From Natronobeatus ordinarius (lineage in GTDB: Archaea; Halobacteriota; Halobacteria; Halobacteriales; Natrialbaceae), in NCBI RefSeq assembly GCF_024362485.1, contig NZ_CP101456.1, positions 62,001-126,000 of the forward strand: a stretch of 64,000 nucleotides of DNA, given 5' to 3'. The position numbers were made by a program, and so were the translations under genes. This document shows, in pieces, positions 41,915 through 51,346 of the stretch. The first letter of the stretch is position 1. Each line of letters opens with the position of its first letter. The notes under the pieces were generated by a model. It was not told the DNA's origin and ran no database searches. It saw only the letters and a list, made by a program, of their open reading frames with translations.

Positions 41915-41935
41915 CAAGTAGTCGAAGTGATAGGC

Positions 41936-42547
41936 ATGGAACTATCACGCCGGAAGGCACTCAAAACGAGTGGTACCATCCTGTCGATAGTAACTGTCGC
42001 TGGGTGTACGTCTGCTAGTTCAGAAGAGGAGAGCAACGACGATTCACAGTCAGAACCGACCACAGAGTCAGAAGAGAAAACTGACGCTGACGAGAAACCA
42101 GAGACAGAGCCAGAACCAGAGAGCAGCAACGAAGAGGACGACGAAGAGGAGGATGAAGCTGGAGCGGAATCCGCAAAGCGTTCGTTAGAGCTACTTGCAG
42201 AAGCGAACGTCGATCACGACCATGCGTGCTTTCACGCCGAGTATGACGAGCGCACCCCTCTCGAGGCAGGTGACTCGGTTGACGACGCTCCAACGGTGAG
42301 CAACACGCATATCATCTGGGAGGTGACGTACGAAGACGATATCGGATACGTGCGTTTCGATGCAGACAAGCACGCCTATGGCGGCGCGTTCGTCTTCTAT
42401 ACAGCCGGTGGGTCAGCGTCCCCTGTCGACGGAACCGAAGTCGTACAGGATACTGTTCCAGACGAGGACTGTAGTGAGCTGGACGAATATCTCCAGGTCG
42501 AACCCGAGGACGGCCAGATCGTCCTCGAGTTGACCGCCGCGGAGTAA
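41936..42547 (+). CDS. Tat lipoprotein with one HDHAC domain
   Basis: A 203-residue exported lipoprotein. SRRKALKT is the twin-Arg motif and TVAGC the lipobox (Cys24). Residues 25-80 are a Ser/Glu/Asp-rich spacer. Residues ~84-200 form the HDHAC domain shared by five copies in this island: LELLAEANVDHDHACFHAEY, DERTPLEAG, HIIWEVTYEDDIGYVRFDA, GAFVFYTAGGS, a second Cys in DEDCSELDEYL and a final QIVLELT. The conserved His/Cys cluster suggests metal or redox binding; this is inferred. I do not recognise the domain in named families. GTG 41927 is an alternative start, but the ATG fits a leaderless mRNA. Confidence 0.85.
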   Translation: MELSRRKALKTSGTILSIVTVAGCTSASSEEESNDDSQSEPTTESEEKTDADEKPETEPEPESSNEEDDEEEDEAGAESAKRSLELLAEANVDHDHACFHAEYDERTPLEAGDSVDDAPTVSNTHIIWEVTYEDDIGYVRFDADKHAYGGAFVFYTAGGSASPVDGTEVVQDTVPDEDCSELDEYLQVEPEDGQIVLELTAAE

Positions 42548-42678: not shown

Positions 42679-43203
42679 ATGGACCATCTCGACGAGATCT
42701 CCGTCGAAGAACTCCAAGACGCTCTCGACAGGGTTGAGGAGAACAAGCCGACACAGCGGTTACTAGCGGCGATCGCGTACAAAAACGGCGTTACGCAGAC
42801 CGAACTTGCAGAGTGGCACGACACCGGTCGAAGAACGATCTACAGCTGGCTCATGCGACTCGATACGGACGAACCGTTTGAGCAAGCCGTTTCTGATGCT
42901 CACCGCTCCGGAAGAAACCGGAAGCTCTCAGAAACACAGCAGGAAGAATTCGAACAAACCGTTCACGAACCTCCCAAGGAAGTCGGGATCGACGCGCCGG
43001 CGTGGACGCCGGCGCTCGTCCAGCAATATCTTGAGGAAACCTACGATGTCGAGTACTCAATCCCGAGCTGCCGGCGGTTACTCAAAGAAGCGGGATTGAG
43101 CTATCAAAAACCACGCCGTACAGCCGCCGAATCTGATGCTGACGAGCAAGAAACCTTCCGCGAAGAGTTCAAAAAAAGCGGCGGGAGATGGACGCCACAG
43201 TAG
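42679..43203 (+). CDS. IS630 transposase, N-terminal frame (DNA-binding part)
   Basis: A 174-residue frame with two helix-turn-helix regions: GVTQTELAEWHDTGRRTIYSWL (about 35-56) and a second homeodomain-like segment WTPALVQQYLEETYDVEYS (about 110-130). It ends at TAG 43201-43203. The catalytic part is encoded in the -1 frame, and joining them at the A7 run (43171-43177) would yield one full-length transposase. Confidence 0.88.
   Translation: MDHLDEISVEELQDALDRVEENKPTQRLLAAIAYKNGVTQTELAEWHDTGRRTIYSWLMRLDTDEPFEQAVSDAHRSGRNRKLSETQQEEFEQTVHEPPKEVGIDAPAWTPALVQQYLEETYDVEYSIPSCRRLLKEAGLSYQKPRRTAAESDADEQETFREEFKKSGGRWTPQ
43171..43177 (+). other. A7 slippery run joining the two transposase frames
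   Basis: The run aaaaaaa followed by g (frame 1 reads TTC AAA AAA AGC) lies just upstream of the frame-1 stop. Moving to the -1 frame here reads ...AAA AAG CGG CGG GAG ATG GAC..., directly continuing into the catalytic frame. Slippage could be transcriptional or ribosomal; sequence alone does not decide. Confidence 0.6.
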
Positions 43204-43679
43204 TCTGTATCGATCAGACCAAGAAATCCGTGCAAGTCGAGCCGCGTGCCGCGTGGTTTCCTCGCGGCACGCGGCCGGCCGTCGAATTATCCGGCCAACG
43301 CGACTGGACGTGCCTGTTGGGCGCGATCACCGAAGACGGTGATCGCTTTTTCGCTCGATTCGAAGAGTACGTAACCGCCGAACACGCCAAACATTTCATT
43401 CTTGCATTATGCGAAGAATTTGAAGATGATTTGCTCATCGTGCTGGATGGAGCGTCGTATTTCCAGGCGTCGGCCGTCACGGACCTGGCGGCCCGTGACG
43501 ACCTCGACTTCGTCACGTTACCGGCGTACTCGCCAGAGCTCAATCCTGTCGAGGAGTGCTGGAGACAACTCCAAGCCGCTCTCAGCAACCGTTTCTTTGA
43601 GTCACTCGACGATCTTACAACGGCGATTGATACAGCTCTTGACCAGATCCCTATACCAAAAGTGAGCAATTATTTCTAA
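43188..43679 (+). CDS. IS630 transposase, C-terminal frame (DDE catalytic part)
   Basis: A 163-residue frame with the IS630/Tc1 DDE triad: first Asp in VVCIDQTKKS, second Asp in IVLDGASYF, and Glu in SPELNPVEECWRQL. It overlaps the upstream frame by 16 bp. Its ATG at 43188 could serve as an independent start, but fusion by frameshift at the A7 run is more likely. Confidence 0.9.
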   Translation: MDATVVCIDQTKKSVQVEPRAAWFPRGTRPAVELSGQRDWTCLLGAITEDGDRFFARFEEYVTAEHAKHFILALCEEFEDDLLIVLDGASYFQASAVTDLAARDDLDFVTLPAYSPELNPVEECWRQLQAALSNRFFESLDDLTTAIDTALDQIPIPKVSNYF

Positions 43680-43814: not shown

Positions 43815-46640
43815 GTGAGGAGTCTCGATAACCAACAGGTAGGCCGACGGACACGCAAATGTGGGGCGATCCTGCTCGTTGCACTGGTAGTTGGCAGTGT
43901 GGCACTCGTCACGGGAACTGGGGCGAGCGGGGATATCGCGCCCGAAGAAGCTGACGGCGTTGAGCTGCTTATCGAAACAAACGTCGATAACGACCACGCA
44001 TGCACACATGATGAACACGACGACAGGACACCGCTTGACGCGGGTGATTCGCCCGAGGATGCACCTGTTGTAACGGACGATCACGTTATCTGGAACGTCA
44101 CCACTGACGGGGGCGAGGGAGTCGTTCAATTCGATAACACTGAGCACGAGGTGTACCCTGGCCTCGACTCGTGGGTCTTCTACTACGCTGACGGTGACCT
44201 AGAGCCCGCCGACGGCGAGGTTCTGGAAACCGGAGACGTGCCTGAGTGCGGCCTCGACAGCTACGTCGAGGTAGAAACACCCGAGGACGGTGTGTTCAAC
44301 TTACAGCTCACGAGCGACGAACACGCTGACGACGACGCTGACGGTGCGGTCGGCGTGCAAGACGACATCAACGCTGACGACGAGAGCTTCGACGTAACGA
44401 CGTCGAACTACACGGAGCTCACTGACGGGGTCGTGCTCGTTGAGGACGGCCAGGGTAACGAGGAAACCTACGACTCAGTCGGCGAGGGCGAGACGCTCAT
44501 CGTCGACGTTAGCGGCGCTGGGCTCGACCTCAACGACGGAGAGGACGTTACCGCAACGCTGTACGAAAGCGACAGTCAGGAGAACGAACTCGACACCGAC
44601 AGCACGACCGTCGACGCGGCTGTCGGTGACGAGATCGAGGAGTTCGAGGTAGTTGACCGCAGCACGGACGAAGTGGCTGCGTACGTTCACGGTGACCACT
44701 GGCACGGCGAACTACCACACGTCGATGCGGGAGAGCACGTTTCGCTCGGTGCGAACATCGAGACCGCCGACGGCGAGGAAATCGACCTGAGCGGTGACGA
44801 ATACTCGCTCGGCGTCGAACTCGCCGACGAAGCTGCGGAAGGTGTCGTCGCCTTCGACGAGTATGGCGATCACGTGCACATTGAGGGTAAAGAGAAAGGA
44901 CACACTGAGGTTGTCTTCCAGCTCGTTCACGACGACCACGTCGACTACGAGACGCCCTCGATAGAAGTCGAGGTCGAACACCACGACCACGGAGACGGGA
45001 CCGAATTCGACGAGGTCGGCGTCTTTGAACTTCACCAGGACGGTAAGGTAGTCGCCTCGGTCGATGATGACGGGTGGGATGGCGAACTGCCTGGCATCGT
45101 CTTCGAACCGGGCGAGAAGCGGTACGGTAACTTCATCGCTGTTACCCTCAGCGCCGCGGCTGAAGATGAACACGGAAACGAAATCGAGCTCGGTCCCGAC
45201 TCTGCCTACGAACTCGGAGTCGAGCCCGTCGACGATACCGCTGAAAAACTGCTGAGCATTGATGAACGCGGAGACAGCGTTGTACTAGATGGTGAAGGGA
45301 ACGCTACGGCCGAGGTTGCCTTCCAGATTCGCGATGCAGATGGCACTGAGTATGAGACTCCAGTCACCACCATCGATATTGACGCGCCACAGGGAGTAAA
45401 ACTCCTTGCAGAGACGAACGTTGATCACGATCATGCTGCCTTCCACGGTGAAATCGATCCGCGGACACCGATCGACGCTGGTGCTGCACCCGGTGACGGG
45501 CCAGTACTAGAGGACGATCACGTCTACTGGAACGTGACGTACGACGGCAGTGCGGGTTACGTCACGTTCGATGCTCTCTCGGATGAGACCTTCTGGGACG
45601 GTCCGTTCGTCTTCTATACCGCTGATGGTTCAGTAGAACCTGTCAACGCAGAGGTTCTCGAACGCGGTGAAGTCGAGGAGATTGAAACCAACACGGGTAC
45701 CGTATATGAGACCGACACTATCGAGGAATACATCAAAGTCGAAACGCCCGAAGATGGAAAGATCCACCTCCAAGTCAGCAGAGACGTCACAGCGAACGGT
45801 ACTACTGTAGAGAACGACTTCGCTGGTATCGTTGCCGACGACGAGCCGCTGCCGGTCGCAGCCGACGGGCTGACCGACGCGGATGGAACCACGATCGATG
45901 ACGACGAGGCAACCGTTCAACTGGTTCGCAACGGGACGGTGCTCGCGGAAACCCACGGCGTGTCGATCGAGGACGGTGAAATCTCCGGAGCGACGATCGA
46001 CACCGAAGCGATCAACGACGACGTCGAACCCGGGCCGGCGACTGTCGTGATAGCGGGAGTCGAAACCGAAACCGAAGCCACTGTCGAACTCGTCCACGAA
46101 GCGTACACTCTCGAAACCGAATCTGCATCGAAGTCGCTGCCACAGCCGGCAATCCTGCACACCGAATCGATAGACACGATCGAACGATGGGACACTGAAA
46201 ACGGGACGTACGTCAGTCTCGGAGCACAGTACGACGACGGTGAACTCATCGATGATCCGGATGATCTCCACCGCGGATTCTACATCAGTGGGGAACACGA
46301 TGGCAGAATCGGATACGAGTTCGAGACGAGTAGCGTCCCAGCGCCTGGTGACGTCCACCTATCCAACGGCTGGCATCTTGCGAGTTCTAACTTCGCAGTC
46401 GATGCGGACGACGGTATCCGAACCCTCGACACAGATCTGGTGAACGTTGAGCCGGCTGCCAACGGTGTCACGGTCGTCGACACCCAGCAGCGGACGCAGT
46501 TGGATACATCATCGACAGTTGATACGTTCGACACTTACTGGATGTTCGTCGACGATCCCGAACGAACCGAACGTGGGGTAGTCAGCCCAAGCTACGACCC
46601 AGCTGAGCGTTCGGCGATTCTCCACGAAACGGACGAATAA
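43815..46640 (+). CDS. Large exported multidomain protein with two HDHAC domains and His-rich beta domains
   Basis: A 941-residue protein from GTG 43815. Hydrophobic signal ~17-36 (AILLVALVVGSVALVTGTGA). HDHAC domain 1 spans 48-167 (DNDHACTH, second Cys145). A linker domain follows (~185-270). Beta domain A (273-390) is full of His: HGDHWHG 292-298, HVH 353-355, HDDH 372-375, HHDHG 389-393. Beta domain B (398-522) has the same pattern without the His (DGWDG 419-423, GDSVV). HDHAC domain 2 spans 528-655, with both Cys lost (DHDHAAFH). The C-terminal ~270 residues are unrecognised and lack a membrane anchor. It probably binds metal outside the cell (inferred). It is followed 33 bp later by another HDHAC gene. 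Confidence 0.82.
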   Translation: MRSLDNQQVGRRTRKCGAILLVALVVGSVALVTGTGASGDIAPEEADGVELLIETNVDNDHACTHDEHDDRTPLDAGDSPEDAPVVTDDHVIWNVTTDGGEGVVQFDNTEHEVYPGLDSWVFYYADGDLEPADGEVLETGDVPECGLDSYVEVETPEDGVFNLQLTSDEHADDDADGAVGVQDDINADDESFDVTTSNYTELTDGVVLVEDGQGNEETYDSVGEGETLIVDVSGAGLDLNDGEDVTATLYESDSQENELDTDSTTVDAAVGDEIEEFEVVDRSTDEVAAYVHGDHWHGELPHVDAGEHVSLGANIETADGEEIDLSGDEYSLGVELADEAAEGVVAFDEYGDHVHIEGKEKGHTEVVFQLVHDDHVDYETPSIEVEVEHHDHGDGTEFDEVGVFELHQDGKVVASVDDDGWDGELPGIVFEPGEKRYGNFIAVTLSAAAEDEHGNEIELGPDSAYELGVEPVDDTAEKLLSIDERGDSVVLDGEGNATAEVAFQIRDADGTEYETPVTTIDIDAPQGVKLLAETNVDHDHAAFHGEIDPRTPIDAGAAPGDGPVLEDDHVYWNVTYDGSAGYVTFDALSDETFWDGPFVFYTADGSVEPVNAEVLERGEVEEIETNTGTVYETDTIEEYIKVETPEDGKIHLQVSRDVTANGTTVENDFAGIVADDEPLPVAADGLTDADGTTIDDDEATVQLVRNGTVLAETHGVSIEDGEISGATIDTEAINDDVEPGPATVVIAGVETETEATVELVHEAYTLETESASKSLPQPAILHTESIDTIERWDTENGTYVSLGAQYDDGELIDDPDDLHRGFYISGEHDGRIGYEFETSSVPAPGDVHLSNGWHLASSNFAVDADDGIRTLDTDLVNVEPAANGVTVVDTQQRTQLDTSSTVDTFDTYWMFVDDPERTERGVVSPSYDPAERSAILHETDE

Positions 46641-46673: not shown

Positions 46674-48590
46674 ATGAAAAACTACAGCACACTCGTTATT
46701 GCTCTCGTGATGATTTCCATCGTCACAGCCGGTAGCGTGGCGATTGCAGTCGGGCAAGAGGAGCCACCAGGAAAACCCGCGAGTTTCTACGGTGAGGCCG
46801 TTGACGAAGATGGCAACCCTGCAGCTGTCGGTACAACGATCGTCGCTGTCGTCGATGGCGACGTTCGGGGACAGGTCACCGTCGATACCGCAGGTGAGTA
46901 CGGAGGCCCTGACGCGTTCGACGAGAAACTGAGTCTCGACAGCGCTGCAGGCGACGAGGTATCGTTCCACGTCGGAGAGCCAGCAGGCCCAGAAGCGCTC
47001 GAGAGTCCGATCAACCTGAGCCCAGGAACGAGTGAACAGCCACTCACGTTCCCGTCAGACACGTTCGAAGACGATTCGACTGCACCTGACCCCGAACCGA
47101 GGCCTGAGCCGGATCCCGATCCCGATCCTGACTCGGATGAATACGTCCTCGAACTACTTGCCGAGCAAAGCGTAGACCACGATCACGCTTGTCTTCATGG
47201 CGATTACGACGACCGAACGCCCCTCGAAGCAGGCAATTCGCCAGAGTCCGCACCCGTCGAAAGTGACGATCACGTTATCTGGAGTGTAACATACGAAGGA
47301 ACTGCGGGCTACGTCACGTTCGACGCTACCGACCACTGGTACGATGGGCCGTTCGTCTTCTATATGGCCGATGGATCGGTCGAACCCACCGAGGCCGACG
47401 TCCTCGAGAGCGGAGATGTTGCCGACGAATACTGTGACACGCTCGAGGAGTATATCAAAGTCGAAACACCTGACGATGGAACGATCGTCCTCGAGCTTAC
47501 TGATGGAGAGAACGTCGACTCTGCACCCTCCCAAGACGCTCCGAGAGACCGGTCCGACGGAGAAGAGCTGGAGGCCGTTATCGATACAGTACCGTCAGAA
47601 CCAGTCACCGGCGAAAATGTGACGATAACGGCCAGTGGATCCACTGGCGGCGACACAGCCATCGTTGCCTATGAGTGGACCGTTAACGGTGAGGTGTTGA
47701 CCGGAAAGCAGACCAACACGACTTTCGAGAAGCCCGGGAAGAAAGAGATCGAGCTGACTGTCGAAAACGAACGAGGAAACGTGGACACGAACACTACAAC
47801 GATCAACGTGTCGACACACTCTGAGCCGTTCTTCGAAGTAACCGAGCTTACTGTCTCTGAGAACGTAACACCAGGAACGCTCCACAACGTAACAGCAACG
47901 ATTACGAATACAGGTGAGGCCAACGGAACGGTAACGGTCACACACACGTTCGATGGTGAAAAACAGAACGAGAGTACTACGGATGTCAGGCGAAACGAGA
48001 CGGTCACAGTTGAATTTGGCAGTGTTGTTCCAGCTGTAGCAGGACAGTATCAGCACACAGTTAGCTCACCCGATGACAACGAATCGGCAACAATAACGGT
48101 CGAGAAACAGAATGGGACGGAATCAGAGAATAAAACAGAAGCGCACGAAGCAGGACAGGAACACGAGTCAGAGCAAGCGCACGGAACAGAACACGAAGCA
48201 GGACAGGAACACGAGTCAGAGCAAGCGCACGGAACAGAACACGAAGCAGGACAGGAACACGAGTCAGAGCAAGCGCACGGAACAGAACACGAAGCAGGAC
48301 AGGAACACGAGTCAGAGCAAGCGCACGGAACAGAACACGAAGCAGGACAGGAACACGAGTCAGAGCAAGCGCACGGAACAGAACACGAAGCAGGACAGGA
48401 ACACGAGTCAGAGCAAGCGCACGGAACAGAACACGAAGCAGGACAGGAGCACGAAGCAGAAGAAGACGAAGAGTCGGATGACTCTATAGCTGGGTTTAGT
48501 GTAGTAACCGCATTTGGAGCGGTTCTCGTATTCGTCATCCTTCTCGGGACACGCTTTGGCGACGTAGCGGAACCAGCTCACGAGTCGTAG
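46674..48590 (+). CDS. Membrane-anchored exported protein: HDHAC, PKD and CARDB-like domains plus His/Glu repeat stalk
   Basis: A 638-residue protein. Signal ~7-27. A small beta domain (~33-100, FYGEAVDEDGNPAAVGTTI). A Pro/Asp linker (~135-155). HDHAC domain ~158-277 (VDHDHACLH, GPFVFYMADGS, Cys254). PKD-like domain ~293-378 (ITASGSTGGDTAIVAYEWTV). CARDB-like beta domain ~385-475 with many N-x-T/S sites. Six 16-residue repeats EHESEQAHGTEHEAGQ (~490-600). C-terminal membrane segment ~606-630 (IAGFSVVTAFGAVLVFVILL), similar to but not a canonical PGF-CTERM. The order suggests a cell-surface protein holding the HDHAC domain away from the membrane on a His-rich stalk. It likely shares a transcript with the 43815 gene. 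Confidence 0.83.
   Translation: MKNYSTLVIALVMISIVTAGSVAIAVGQEEPPGKPASFYGEAVDEDGNPAAVGTTIVAVVDGDVRGQVTVDTAGEYGGPDAFDEKLSLDSAAGDEVSFHVGEPAGPEALESPINLSPGTSEQPLTFPSDTFEDDSTAPDPEPRPEPDPDPDPDSDEYVLELLAEQSVDHDHACLHGDYDDRTPLEAGNSPESAPVESDDHVIWSVTYEGTAGYVTFDATDHWYDGPFVFYMADGSVEPTEADVLESGDVADEYCDTLEEYIKVETPDDGTIVLELTDGENVDSAPSQDAPRDRSDGEELEAVIDTVPSEPVTGENVTITASGSTGGDTAIVAYEWTVNGEVLTGKQTNTTFEKPGKKEIELTVENERGNVDTNTTTINVSTHSEPFFEVTELTVSENVTPGTLHNVTATITNTGEANGTVTVTHTFDGEKQNESTTDVRRNETVTVEFGSVVPAVAGQYQHTVSSPDDNESATITVEKQNGTESENKTEAHEAGQEHESEQAHGTEHEAGQEHESEQAHGTEHEAGQEHESEQAHGTEHEAGQEHESEQAHGTEHEAGQEHESEQAHGTEHEAGQEHESEQAHGTEHEAGQEHEAEEDEESDDSIAGFSVVTAFGAVLVFVILLGTRFGDVAEPAHES
48144..48455 (+). repeat. 48-bp coding tandem repeat, six full units
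   Basis: The unit encodes 16 residues of His, Glu, Gln, Ala, Gly, Ser and Thr (cacgaagcaggacaggaaca, then cgagtcagagcaagcgcacg and gaacagaa). Six copies look identical at the DNA level, followed by a partial seventh. Complete synonymous identity indicates very recent expansion or ongoing homogenisation. Confidence 0.92.
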
Positions 48591-48757: not shown

Positions 48758-49399
48758 ATGAAACTCACACGACGAAAGGTGTTCAAGGCCGGAACTGGAG
48801 CACTGGCAGTGGCTATCATGGGTGGCTATCCGACAGCTGTGTCGGCAACGTCGGATGACGACGATGAGGCGTCGGAGACGAAAGGACAGAGCCTCGAGTT
48901 ACTCGCAGAGGGGTCGGTTGGCCACGCTCACGCGTGTAGTCACGCCAAGTTCGACGACCGGACGCCACTGTCGGCCGCTGAAACCAAAGCCGATGCGCCG
49001 ACGGTCGACGACACGCACGTGATCTGGGAGGTCACCTACGACGGAGAGCAGGGATACGTGACGTTCGACGCGGACGGCCACTGGCGCGATGGACCGTTCG
49101 TCTTCTATCTGGCCGACGGTACTGCAAACGTCGTCGAGGGAACCGAAGTCGAACGGGACGACGTCGACGACGACGACTGTGAATTCCTGGACGAGTATCT
49201 CGTCGCCGATCACGCAAACGGCCAGATTACGCTCGAACTCGTTGCACAGTCGCCGCTCGAGGAGTACGCTACCGAGAACGGAGTCGTCGAAACCGAGGGG
49301 CTTCGTGGAGCGATCGACGACTGGCGTGAGGGAGATACCGAGACCGAGCTTCTCCGAGACGTGATCGACGCCTGGCGAAGTGGGGAGCCGATTAGCTGA
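48758..49399 (+). CDS. Tat-exported HDHAC-domain protein with dockerin-like tail
   Basis: A 213-residue protein with Tat signal LTRRKVFKAGTGALAVAI and cleavage near AVSA (about 30). HDHAC domain ~46-163: GHAHACSHAKFDDRTPLSA, VIWEVTYDGEQGYVTFDA, DGPFVFYLADGT, second Cys141 (DDDDCEFLDEYL) and QITLELV. The tail ~164-213, EYATENGVVETEGLRGAIDD then WREGD...LLRDVIDAWRSGE, is a dockerin-like two-helix module also present at the end of the convergent beta-propeller protein. It has no lipobox or membrane anchor, so it is likely secreted or held through the tail. Confidence 0.85.
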   Translation: MKLTRRKVFKAGTGALAVAIMGGYPTAVSATSDDDDEASETKGQSLELLAEGSVGHAHACSHAKFDDRTPLSAAETKADAPTVDDTHVIWEVTYDGEQGYVTFDADGHWRDGPFVFYLADGTANVVEGTEVERDDVDDDDCEFLDEYLVADHANGQITLELVAQSPLEEYATENGVVETEGLRGAIDDWREGDTETELLRDVIDAWRSGEPIS

Positions 49400-49499: not shown

Positions 49500-51029
49500 T
49501 TAGCTGCTTTCCCAGACGTCGATCACGTCCCGCAGCAGGTCCGTACTGATGTCTCCGCCGCGCCAGTCGTCGATCGCCTCGCGGAGGCCGTCGGTCTGGA
49601 CGTTGCCGTCGTCGTCGGCATAGTCGCTGACGTCACCATCGCTATCTTCAGCGGCGTATTCCGCCCAGACGTTGTGGTGACCGTGCGTGCCAAGTTCAAC
49701 GCGGGAGCCATTACTCGAGCAGTCGACGTGGGTGTCGATCGCGTACATGTTCGAGTCTTCGCCACCGTGGCCGGCGTCGGAACCGATGTACAACACTCCA
49801 TCGACTACTGTCGGAGACGAGCGGAAACCGGCAGCTTCCGTCTCGAACTGCCACTCTTTTTCACCAGTTGCTGTGTCGATTCCATAGACCGATCCACCGA
49901 TCTCGGAACCGATGTCAGCAACGAATACCGTGTCATTGACGACCGTCGGGGACGACTCGTCGATCCAACCCTCGGTCGCAAACGTCCATTCGCTCTCTCC
50001 CGTCTCGGCCTCGAGGGCGTGCAGGAGTCCATCGTTGCTACCGACATACACGGTGCCGTCAGCAACCGTCGGGGAGCCACGGATCCAGCCATCCGCCTCG
50101 ACTGTCCACTCTTCGGTGCCATCTTCGGCGTCGACAGCGTGAAGCCAACCGTAGTACTCCCACTCCTGCTGGGTGGTCACACCCTCGGTTAGGTCGCCCG
50201 TTTCAGGATCGATATTCGGAGACGCTGACGTCGCCGCTGCCTCGCCGTCAACTTGCTCTGTCAGGTGACTTCCGACGTAGACAGTCCCGTCCGCGACTGT
50301 GGCCGACGACGCGATGTCGCCTTCGGCCTGGAACCGCCACTCCTCTTCACCGGTTTCGGCGTCGATTGCATACAGGTGTTTGTCGGTTTCATCCCACCCT
50401 GCACCGATATACACGGTTCCGTCGACGACAGTTGGAGAGGTGGTGATCCAGTCTTTCGGTTCGTCGAAACGCCACTCTTGCTCGCCGGTCTCGGCGTCGA
50501 TTGCGTAGACGAAACCGCTGTTGTTTCCGACGTAAACGGTGCCATCGAGGACCGTCGGCGAGCCCCAGATGTGATTGAGGTCCTCGTAGTGAATGTCCCG
50601 CTCGTCGGTCTCGAAGCGCCAGAGATAATCGCCCTCCTCGGCGCTTCCGTCCTCCCACTCGGGGTCGACTGGGAGTGCGTACACCGAGTTGTCGTTACTC
50701 GCGATGTAAACGGTGTCGTCGATGACCGTCGGCGAGGGATTGATAATTCCTTCAGTCAGGAACTCCCACTGCTTCTCGCCCGTCGTTGCATCGAACACGT
50801 AGAGCACACCGTCCCGCGTTCCGACGTAGACCGTCCCATCGACGATTGTCGGTCCCGACTTCATCACACCGAAGTCCGTCTCGAACGACCACAGTTTCTC
50901 ACCGGCGTCACTCGCTTGCGTTTCAGGGGACTCTCGCGCCCCGGTAGTGCTCGAGAAAGCGAGAGCACCGACAGTACCAGCGGCGGTCAACTTTAAGACG
51001 TCCCGCCGTCCTAGACGCTGTTGACTCAT
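49500..51029 (-). CDS. Tat-exported PQQ-type beta-propeller protein with dockerin-like tail
   Basis: A 509-residue protein. Tat signal LGRRDVLKLTAAGTVGALAF; start ATG 51029 places the RR motif near the N-terminus, whereas GTG 51080 would bury it. About nine propeller-blade repeats of the form SPTVVDGTVYVGS ... YAIDAETGEEEWRF fill ~45-430, the pattern of PQQ-binding-like/BamB-type propellers; here they probably act as a binding scaffold rather than a quinoprotein, since no enzyme residues are evident. The last ~45 residues, YADDDGNVQTDGLREAIDDW then RGGDISTDLLRDVIDVWESS, match the tail of the HDHAC protein at 48758. Confidence 0.87.
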   Translation of the reverse strand: MSQQRLGRRDVLKLTAAGTVGALAFSSTTGARESPETQASDAGEKLWSFETDFGVMKSGPTIVDGTVYVGTRDGVLYVFDATTGEKQWEFLTEGIINPSPTVIDDTVYIASNDNSVYALPVDPEWEDGSAEEGDYLWRFETDERDIHYEDLNHIWGSPTVLDGTVYVGNNSGFVYAIDAETGEQEWRFDEPKDWITTSPTVVDGTVYIGAGWDETDKHLYAIDAETGEEEWRFQAEGDIASSATVADGTVYVGSHLTEQVDGEAAATSASPNIDPETGDLTEGVTTQQEWEYYGWLHAVDAEDGTEEWTVEADGWIRGSPTVADGTVYVGSNDGLLHALEAETGESEWTFATEGWIDESSPTVVNDTVFVADIGSEIGGSVYGIDTATGEKEWQFETEAAGFRSSPTVVDGVLYIGSDAGHGGEDSNMYAIDTHVDCSSNGSRVELGTHGHHNVWAEYAAEDSDGDVSDYADDDGNVQTDGLREAIDDWRGGDISTDLLRDVIDVWESS

Positions 51030-51346
51030 CGGCCCCACCTCCACCCCGTCGACGTTCGTGGCAGACCGCTGTTCCCCCACCTGACTGTCCGACAGTGTAT
51101 CGTCTCTGTCATCATTGGCACGTGATACTAATCAGTTAGCATCTTTTAATATTTTCGAATAATTCTTTGGCGAGTGTTGTTATCGAGATGGGCGTTGAAA
51201 CGGTTTACACCCGATCACGATCGAACGACCAGTACTGGCCGTTCTACTGCGAGCAGTGTGTGACTCGAGTTCGATCCCCTCGCTGATCTCGAGGGCGCGA
51301 ATGTCGTTCGGACCGTCGAAGGTGCCCTCGAGTGCGGGTCGGCCGG

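Follow-up and report, generated by a model that had tools for sequence, protein, structure and literature searches.

Why would two otherwise conserved cysteines be missing together from one of five copies of the same domain? The question was raised by the window analysed here, which is the whole stretch of 64,000 nucleotides (G000:C1:62001-126000) taken from a haloarchaeal genome of 4.2 Mb. An exported domain of ~120 residues, called HDHAC below, is encoded five times within 7.1 kb of the window (42.2-49.3 kb, + strand). The copies belong to four exported proteins with lengths of 206, 941, 638 and 213 residues, the second of which contains two of them. Four of the five copies display a first cysteine (Cys1) in an H-A-C-x-H motif and a second one (Cys2) ~80 residues further on. 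Copy 2 of the 941-residue protein displays neither. Its first motif, starting at 45423, reads DHDHAAFH and has an Ala codon (GCC, 45438-45440, +) at the Cys1 site; its second region, EIETNTGTVYETDTIEEYI from 45678, aligns a Thr (about 45711-45713, +) with Cys2, in a loop that carries a local insertion of about 10 residues. The joint absence reported in the earlier note is therefore real. Three His residues are nearly invariant as well, namely those on either side of Cys1 (HACxH) and a third some 25 residues further on (T/D-H); they are referred to here as the His triad.

The first domain of the array belongs to a Tat/lipobox lipoprotein of 206 residues (ORF 41927-42547; domain 42185-42544, +) and carries both Cys. 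Between its gene and that of the 941-residue protein lies an IS630-like transposase, encoded by two overlapping frames (HTH + DDE_3; 42679-43679), which was missing from the orthologous arrays L051 and L052. The 941-residue exported multidomain protein (43815-46640, +) comprises HDHAC copy 1 (43959-44321, +; both Cys), two DHWHG-type domains and HDHAC copy 2 (45396-45788, +; Cys-less, His triad present), and the only cysteines of its mature form are the two of copy 1. Both Cys are also present in the domains of the 638-residue protein (ORF 46674-48590; domain 47148-47510, +; AlphaFold2 model m9771f64a119c) and of the 213-residue exported protein (ORF 48758-49399; domain 48893-49252, +), as well as in a sixth genomic copy, located outside the window in a lipoprotein with long His/Asp repeats. 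A 48-bp tandem repeat (48144-48454, +; 6.5 copies, 99 % match) in the gene of the 638-residue protein encodes a His/Glu-rich 16-residue repeat just N-terminal to the C-terminal hydrophobic segment; this repeat could serve as a metal buffer. The 213-residue protein (48758-49399) and a PQQ beta-propeller protein (49500-51080) have in common a C-terminal tail, GLRxAIDDWRxGDxxTxLLRDVIDxW, which we take to be dockerin-like, and a similar propeller gene adjoined a domain gene in L062 and L063 also.

The DHWHG-type domains represent a second uncatalogued domain, with the pattern DHWHG ... SLGAxIE ... GDHVHI. The first one of the 941-residue protein (residues 276-388; 44640-44978, +) is related to an insert inside an ordinary haloarchaeal ZnuA (31 % identity, 118 columns), and the motif of the second (residues 390-523; 44982-45383, +) is degenerate (DDDGWDG). 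Occurrences of this domain were thus encountered twice in the 941-residue protein (44640-45383), as a ZnuA insert (L065:3588-5036) and inside the HDHAC domain of L075.

Homologues of HDHAC were gathered from the family (Natrialbaceae) and the order of the window's genome, and 54 complete copies were aligned. Comparison of the two Cys columns yielded 51 copies with both residues, three with neither and none with a single one. The copy of L070, whose Cys1 aligns one residue off its column, is counted among the 51; L058:8030-8338 was excluded as a single-Cys homologue and treated as a remnant, and L077 (E 0.004 in the first search) was removed as a false match. In the L058 remnant the N-terminal half including Cys1 is deleted, MNLTRR being joined to RTSLEA, and Cys2 alone is left. 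The pair was kept across His/Asp-rich inserts, which place the two Cys 124-147 residues apart, and in L075, where a whole DHWHG domain is inserted between them and the distance reaches 233 residues. The claim that the two cysteines act as a pair holds, since no complete homologue retained one alone and the pair survived such large inserts. In a phylum-wide sample of 393 genomes, matches to the domain were restricted to genomes of the window's own order, and scans of viral contigs and plasmids found no relatives of it.

The mature exported proteins contained essentially two cysteines per Cys-bearing domain, besides those of lipoboxes and signal peptides: eight in an 889-residue protein with four domains, four in a 1055-residue protein with two, and two in the 941-residue protein with its one Cys-bearing copy. 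Exceptions with extra Cys were found in L055:8592-8942, L056:14060-16414 and elsewhere. Co-conservation of the cysteines as a pair, in proteins provided with lipobox or signal sequences, is consistent with a disulfide-bonded exported domain. The bonds could in principle be intermolecular and cross-link domains or proteins of the array, given that several copies have neighbouring genes and that up to four domains occur in some proteins; but many single-domain proteins have exactly two Cys, the cysteines always come two per domain, and inter-chain links would tolerate a single Cys per domain, so that cross-linking of this kind is highly improbable.

Both Cys are missing from copy 2 of the 941-residue protein and from its orthologues in two genomes, G034 and G046; in G098 and G096 the orthologous copies display both. 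After removal of the Cys columns, a tree placed the three Cys-less copies in one clade (SH-aLRT 91), and one change was needed. Because these copies are orthologues forming one clade, the tree indicates that the paired loss is a single evolutionary event, which counts as one piece of evidence for a pair; for the same reason, the strength of the paired loss is overstated by the naive P of 4e-5. Sixteen columns were conserved to at least 90 % in the other 51 copies, and only the two Cys columns were altered in all three Cys-less ones; as the alignment indicates, this column specificity exceeds chance. The His triad is intact in all three, and each remaining column of this class is retained in at least one of them. 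Such retention disagrees with the notion that copy 2 is a decaying domain in which the loss of two Cys is incidental, a notion prompted by its faster evolution (88 % identity between the window and L052, against 92 % for copy 1) and by the degenerate DHWHG domain that precedes it. As dN/dS among the three Cys-less copies also holds at 0.24-0.30 (0.10-0.29 for copy 1), incidental loss appears quite unlikely, and these values indicate that copy 2 is still under selection and not simply decaying.

Losses of the reverse kind affected the His triad. All three His are gone in L070 and L064, and two of them in L056:7965-8372, with both Cys kept in each case; the tree requires that His were lost separately on three occasions and the Cys on one. 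These patterns bear on a further possibility, namely that the Cys and the neighbouring His form one shared metal site (Cys2His2-type or blue-copper-like) that was lost in copy 2. Such a site would suit the position of Cys1 between two conserved His (HACxH) and the metal-uptake context of the domain described below. Both residue sets should then decay together, yet the triad is intact in the Cys-less copies and both Cys are intact in three independent His-losing lineages; the shared site is therefore disfavoured and was set aside as unlikely. Because Cys-less copies keep their His and His-losing copies keep their Cys, this double dissociation indicates two separate functional units, one being the Cys pair and the other the His triad. 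The earlier note had offered two options, a disulfide or binding of the same metal; the independent decay favours the former over one shared Cys/His site, the Cys pair being probably a structural disulfide and the His triad a metal site. The divergent copy without triad His but with both Cys in L070 (5277-6422) is located near a CopC/CopD gene, away from znuA, a location suggesting that the domain may have been reused.

AlphaFold2 models of a Cys-bearing and a Cys-less copy were of middling confidence (pLDDT 73.7 and 75.3, respectively). At that confidence, both models displayed the same order of elements, i.e. a strand, a helix at positions 13-22 (with H15, C17 and H19) and then seven strands.

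Two DsbA-like lipoproteins with CxxC motifs (Thioredoxin_4/DSBA, PF13462/PF01323; 28308-30007, +) had been put forward as suppliers of the oxidant. The genes are indeed there, but the case for them is weak: a distance of 12 kb separates them from the first domain gene, proteins of this type are widespread (101 of 125 family genomes, including all 20 of 20 domain-bearing ones), and such genes were absent from the other domain loci fetched. The enrichment in domain-bearing genomes (20/20 versus 101/125, P 0.009) is weak and its statistic ignores kinship. With this weak enrichment and no linkage elsewhere, a dedicated DsbA partner was set aside, and the DsbA-like proteins may act as a general oxidant. 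Their presence in the same window is also in line with a role of the Cys pair as redox-active or regulatory thiols, whose reversible disulfide would gate zinc binding or release, and oxidation of a Cys1 placed between metal-ligand His could alter metal affinity. The pair lacks a CxxC motif, however, the Cys are kept where the His site is lost, and no conserved redox partner gene adjoins the domain elsewhere, which makes thiol-based gating very unlikely.

The genomic surroundings of the domain, whose relation to zinc uptake had escaped the earlier note, show what it is likely to do. ZnuA-type proteins deliver zinc to ZnuBC. A ZnuA (PF01297) gene was present in the domain locus, usually with ZnuC and ZnuB, in 21 of the 27 domain-bearing genomes; two further genomes were represented by contigs too short to judge, and no ZnuA was found beside the domain on the long contigs of G021, G085, G097 and G102. 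This linkage is far above chance, since genomes of this group hold only one to five ZnuA genes. In five sampled proteins (L025, L026, L027, L079 and L081) the domain is even contained within ZnuA: the match to PF01297 is interrupted near profile position 98 (about 98/97), the domain fills the gap, and the sequence surrounding it is His-rich, in the place of the His-rich loop. As its genes accompany those of a ZnuABC-type importer or are fused with znuA, the domain is a candidate member of the functional class of accessory zinc-capture domains. The window's own array has no adjoining znuA, the nearest ZnuA genes being more than 1 Mb away. Elsewhere in the same genome (L071:7909-8904), a transposase gene separates a His/Asp-rich HDHAC lipoprotein gene from the znuA of a znu operon. 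A COG0523 gene, which from its sequence we take to be CobW-like, adjoins the array in G034 and is located near a fused ZnuA in G059.

Given this znuA linkage and fusion and the established role of ZnuA-type proteins, the best reading of HDHAC is that of an extracellular zinc-capture domain, in which zinc would be bound by the His triad and the His/Asp-rich loops. Zinc is the metal suggested by the context, but Mn is a further cargo known for proteins of the ZnuA type. Gathering of zinc for these proteins is known to be assisted by His-rich loops and accessory domains (PMC7858048), and a haloarchaeal znuACB operon is known in Haloferax volcanii (PMC8155600).

None of the 54 copies matched a Pfam family at E 0.01. 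Searches of NCBIfam yielded no convincing family and only isolated weak matches, the best of which was to ZrgA (NF047873, cut-off 185 bits) in one of the 54 copies (E 3.5e-6; none in the other 53), probably due to its His/Asp-rich sequence. The 206-residue protein of the window scored 13.8 bits against the same model, short of the 185 bits that would assign it to ZrgA. Profile searches of PDB sequences gave weak partial matches only (best E 0.004, designed Cake proteins). Foldseek with both middling-confidence models found no match at E 0.001, and VIA-align with both found nothing convincing, the best hit (Z 4.7, 2.4 A over 62 residues) resting on a middling-confidence, beta-rich model with one helix.

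Several known systems are nevertheless comparable. ZinT (YodA) and the C-terminal domain of AdcA are likewise accessory and extracytoplasmic, occur stand-alone or fused to ZnuA-type proteins and have a three-His site (PMC7858048); in contrast to them, HDHAC copies measure ~120 residues, possess the Cys pair and gave no match to the curated Pfam ZinT profile (0 of 54), and the fused HDHAC sits inside ZnuA at the His-rich loop, whereas the ZinT-like domain of AdcA is C-terminal. The ZinT family is further characterised by a lipocalin-like barrel with a three-His zinc site; the HDHAC model available for comparison was beta-rich, had one helix and was of middling confidence. ZnuA and other cluster A-I proteins (PF01297) are operon partners of HDHAC and its hosts in the five sampled fusions, but the domain itself has no PF01297 similarity, which places it outside that family, and occupies the place of the His-rich loop. 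ZrgA/PA4063 resemble it as accessory exported zinc-uptake proteins with His-rich loops (PMC9820375, PMC8561739). ZepA of cyanobacteria also handles zinc outside the cell; it has a beta-sandwich domain, three His are predicted as its ligands, and it is reported to be absent from Archaea (PMC10957091). Its His motif is H-x(2-9)-H-F/Y-H, as opposed to the HACxH plus distant His, with a Cys pair, of HDHAC. The streptococcal polyhistidine triad protein PhtD is a surface protein with repeated His domains encoded beside the zinc-binding protein AdcAII (PMC3842936); HDHAC gave no Pfam match to the polyhistidine triad family. By analogy, the domain would function like ZinT, ZrgA or ZepA, and the tests made do not allow it to be assigned to any of them.

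We consider it very likely that HDHAC combines a structural Cys disulfide with a separate zinc-binding His triad feeding ZnuA, and that copy 2 lost the disulfide once; we are more confident of the disulfide than of the metal. The sequences show that the Cys go together, that they vary independently of the His, that they were lost in a single event, that selection continues and that the domain is linked to znuA; from this we infer that the Cys are bonded, which metal is bound and that it is passed to ZnuA. The disulfide would tie the short H-x-A-Cys-x-H helix to the loop ahead of the penultimate strand, Cys1 being placed between the two presumed metal-ligand His of that helix. The separate triad, formed by the two helix His and the T/D-H that opens the next strand, would bind a metal, most likely zinc, in many cases with help from His/Asp-rich loops. 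Copies anchored by a lipid or secreted would trap extracellular zinc and hand it to ZnuA of the ZnuABC importer, and in certain species ZnuA itself contains the domain. The ancestor of copy 2 would have lost both Cys, and hence the disulfide, once, with retention of the metal site.

Paired cysteines alone would be an ordinary sign of a disulfide. What is gained here is a domain that Pfam lacks and NCBIfam does not convincingly match, and through which a set of haloarchaeal surface proteins without annotation becomes connected with zinc uptake. The natural variants, i.e. Cys-less copies that kept the His and His-less copies that kept the Cys, provide ready controls for the respective roles of the disulfide and the His site. 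It seems reasonably likely that HDHAC represents a new, haloarchaea-specific family of domains for zinc capture outside the cell, whose HACxH helix is held to the core by a disulfide and which is deployed as lipoproteins, in arrays within large secreted proteins, or inserted into ZnuA in replacement of its flexible, zinc-gathering His-rich loop. Such a family would suggest how archaea that lack an outer membrane may collect zinc at their surface.
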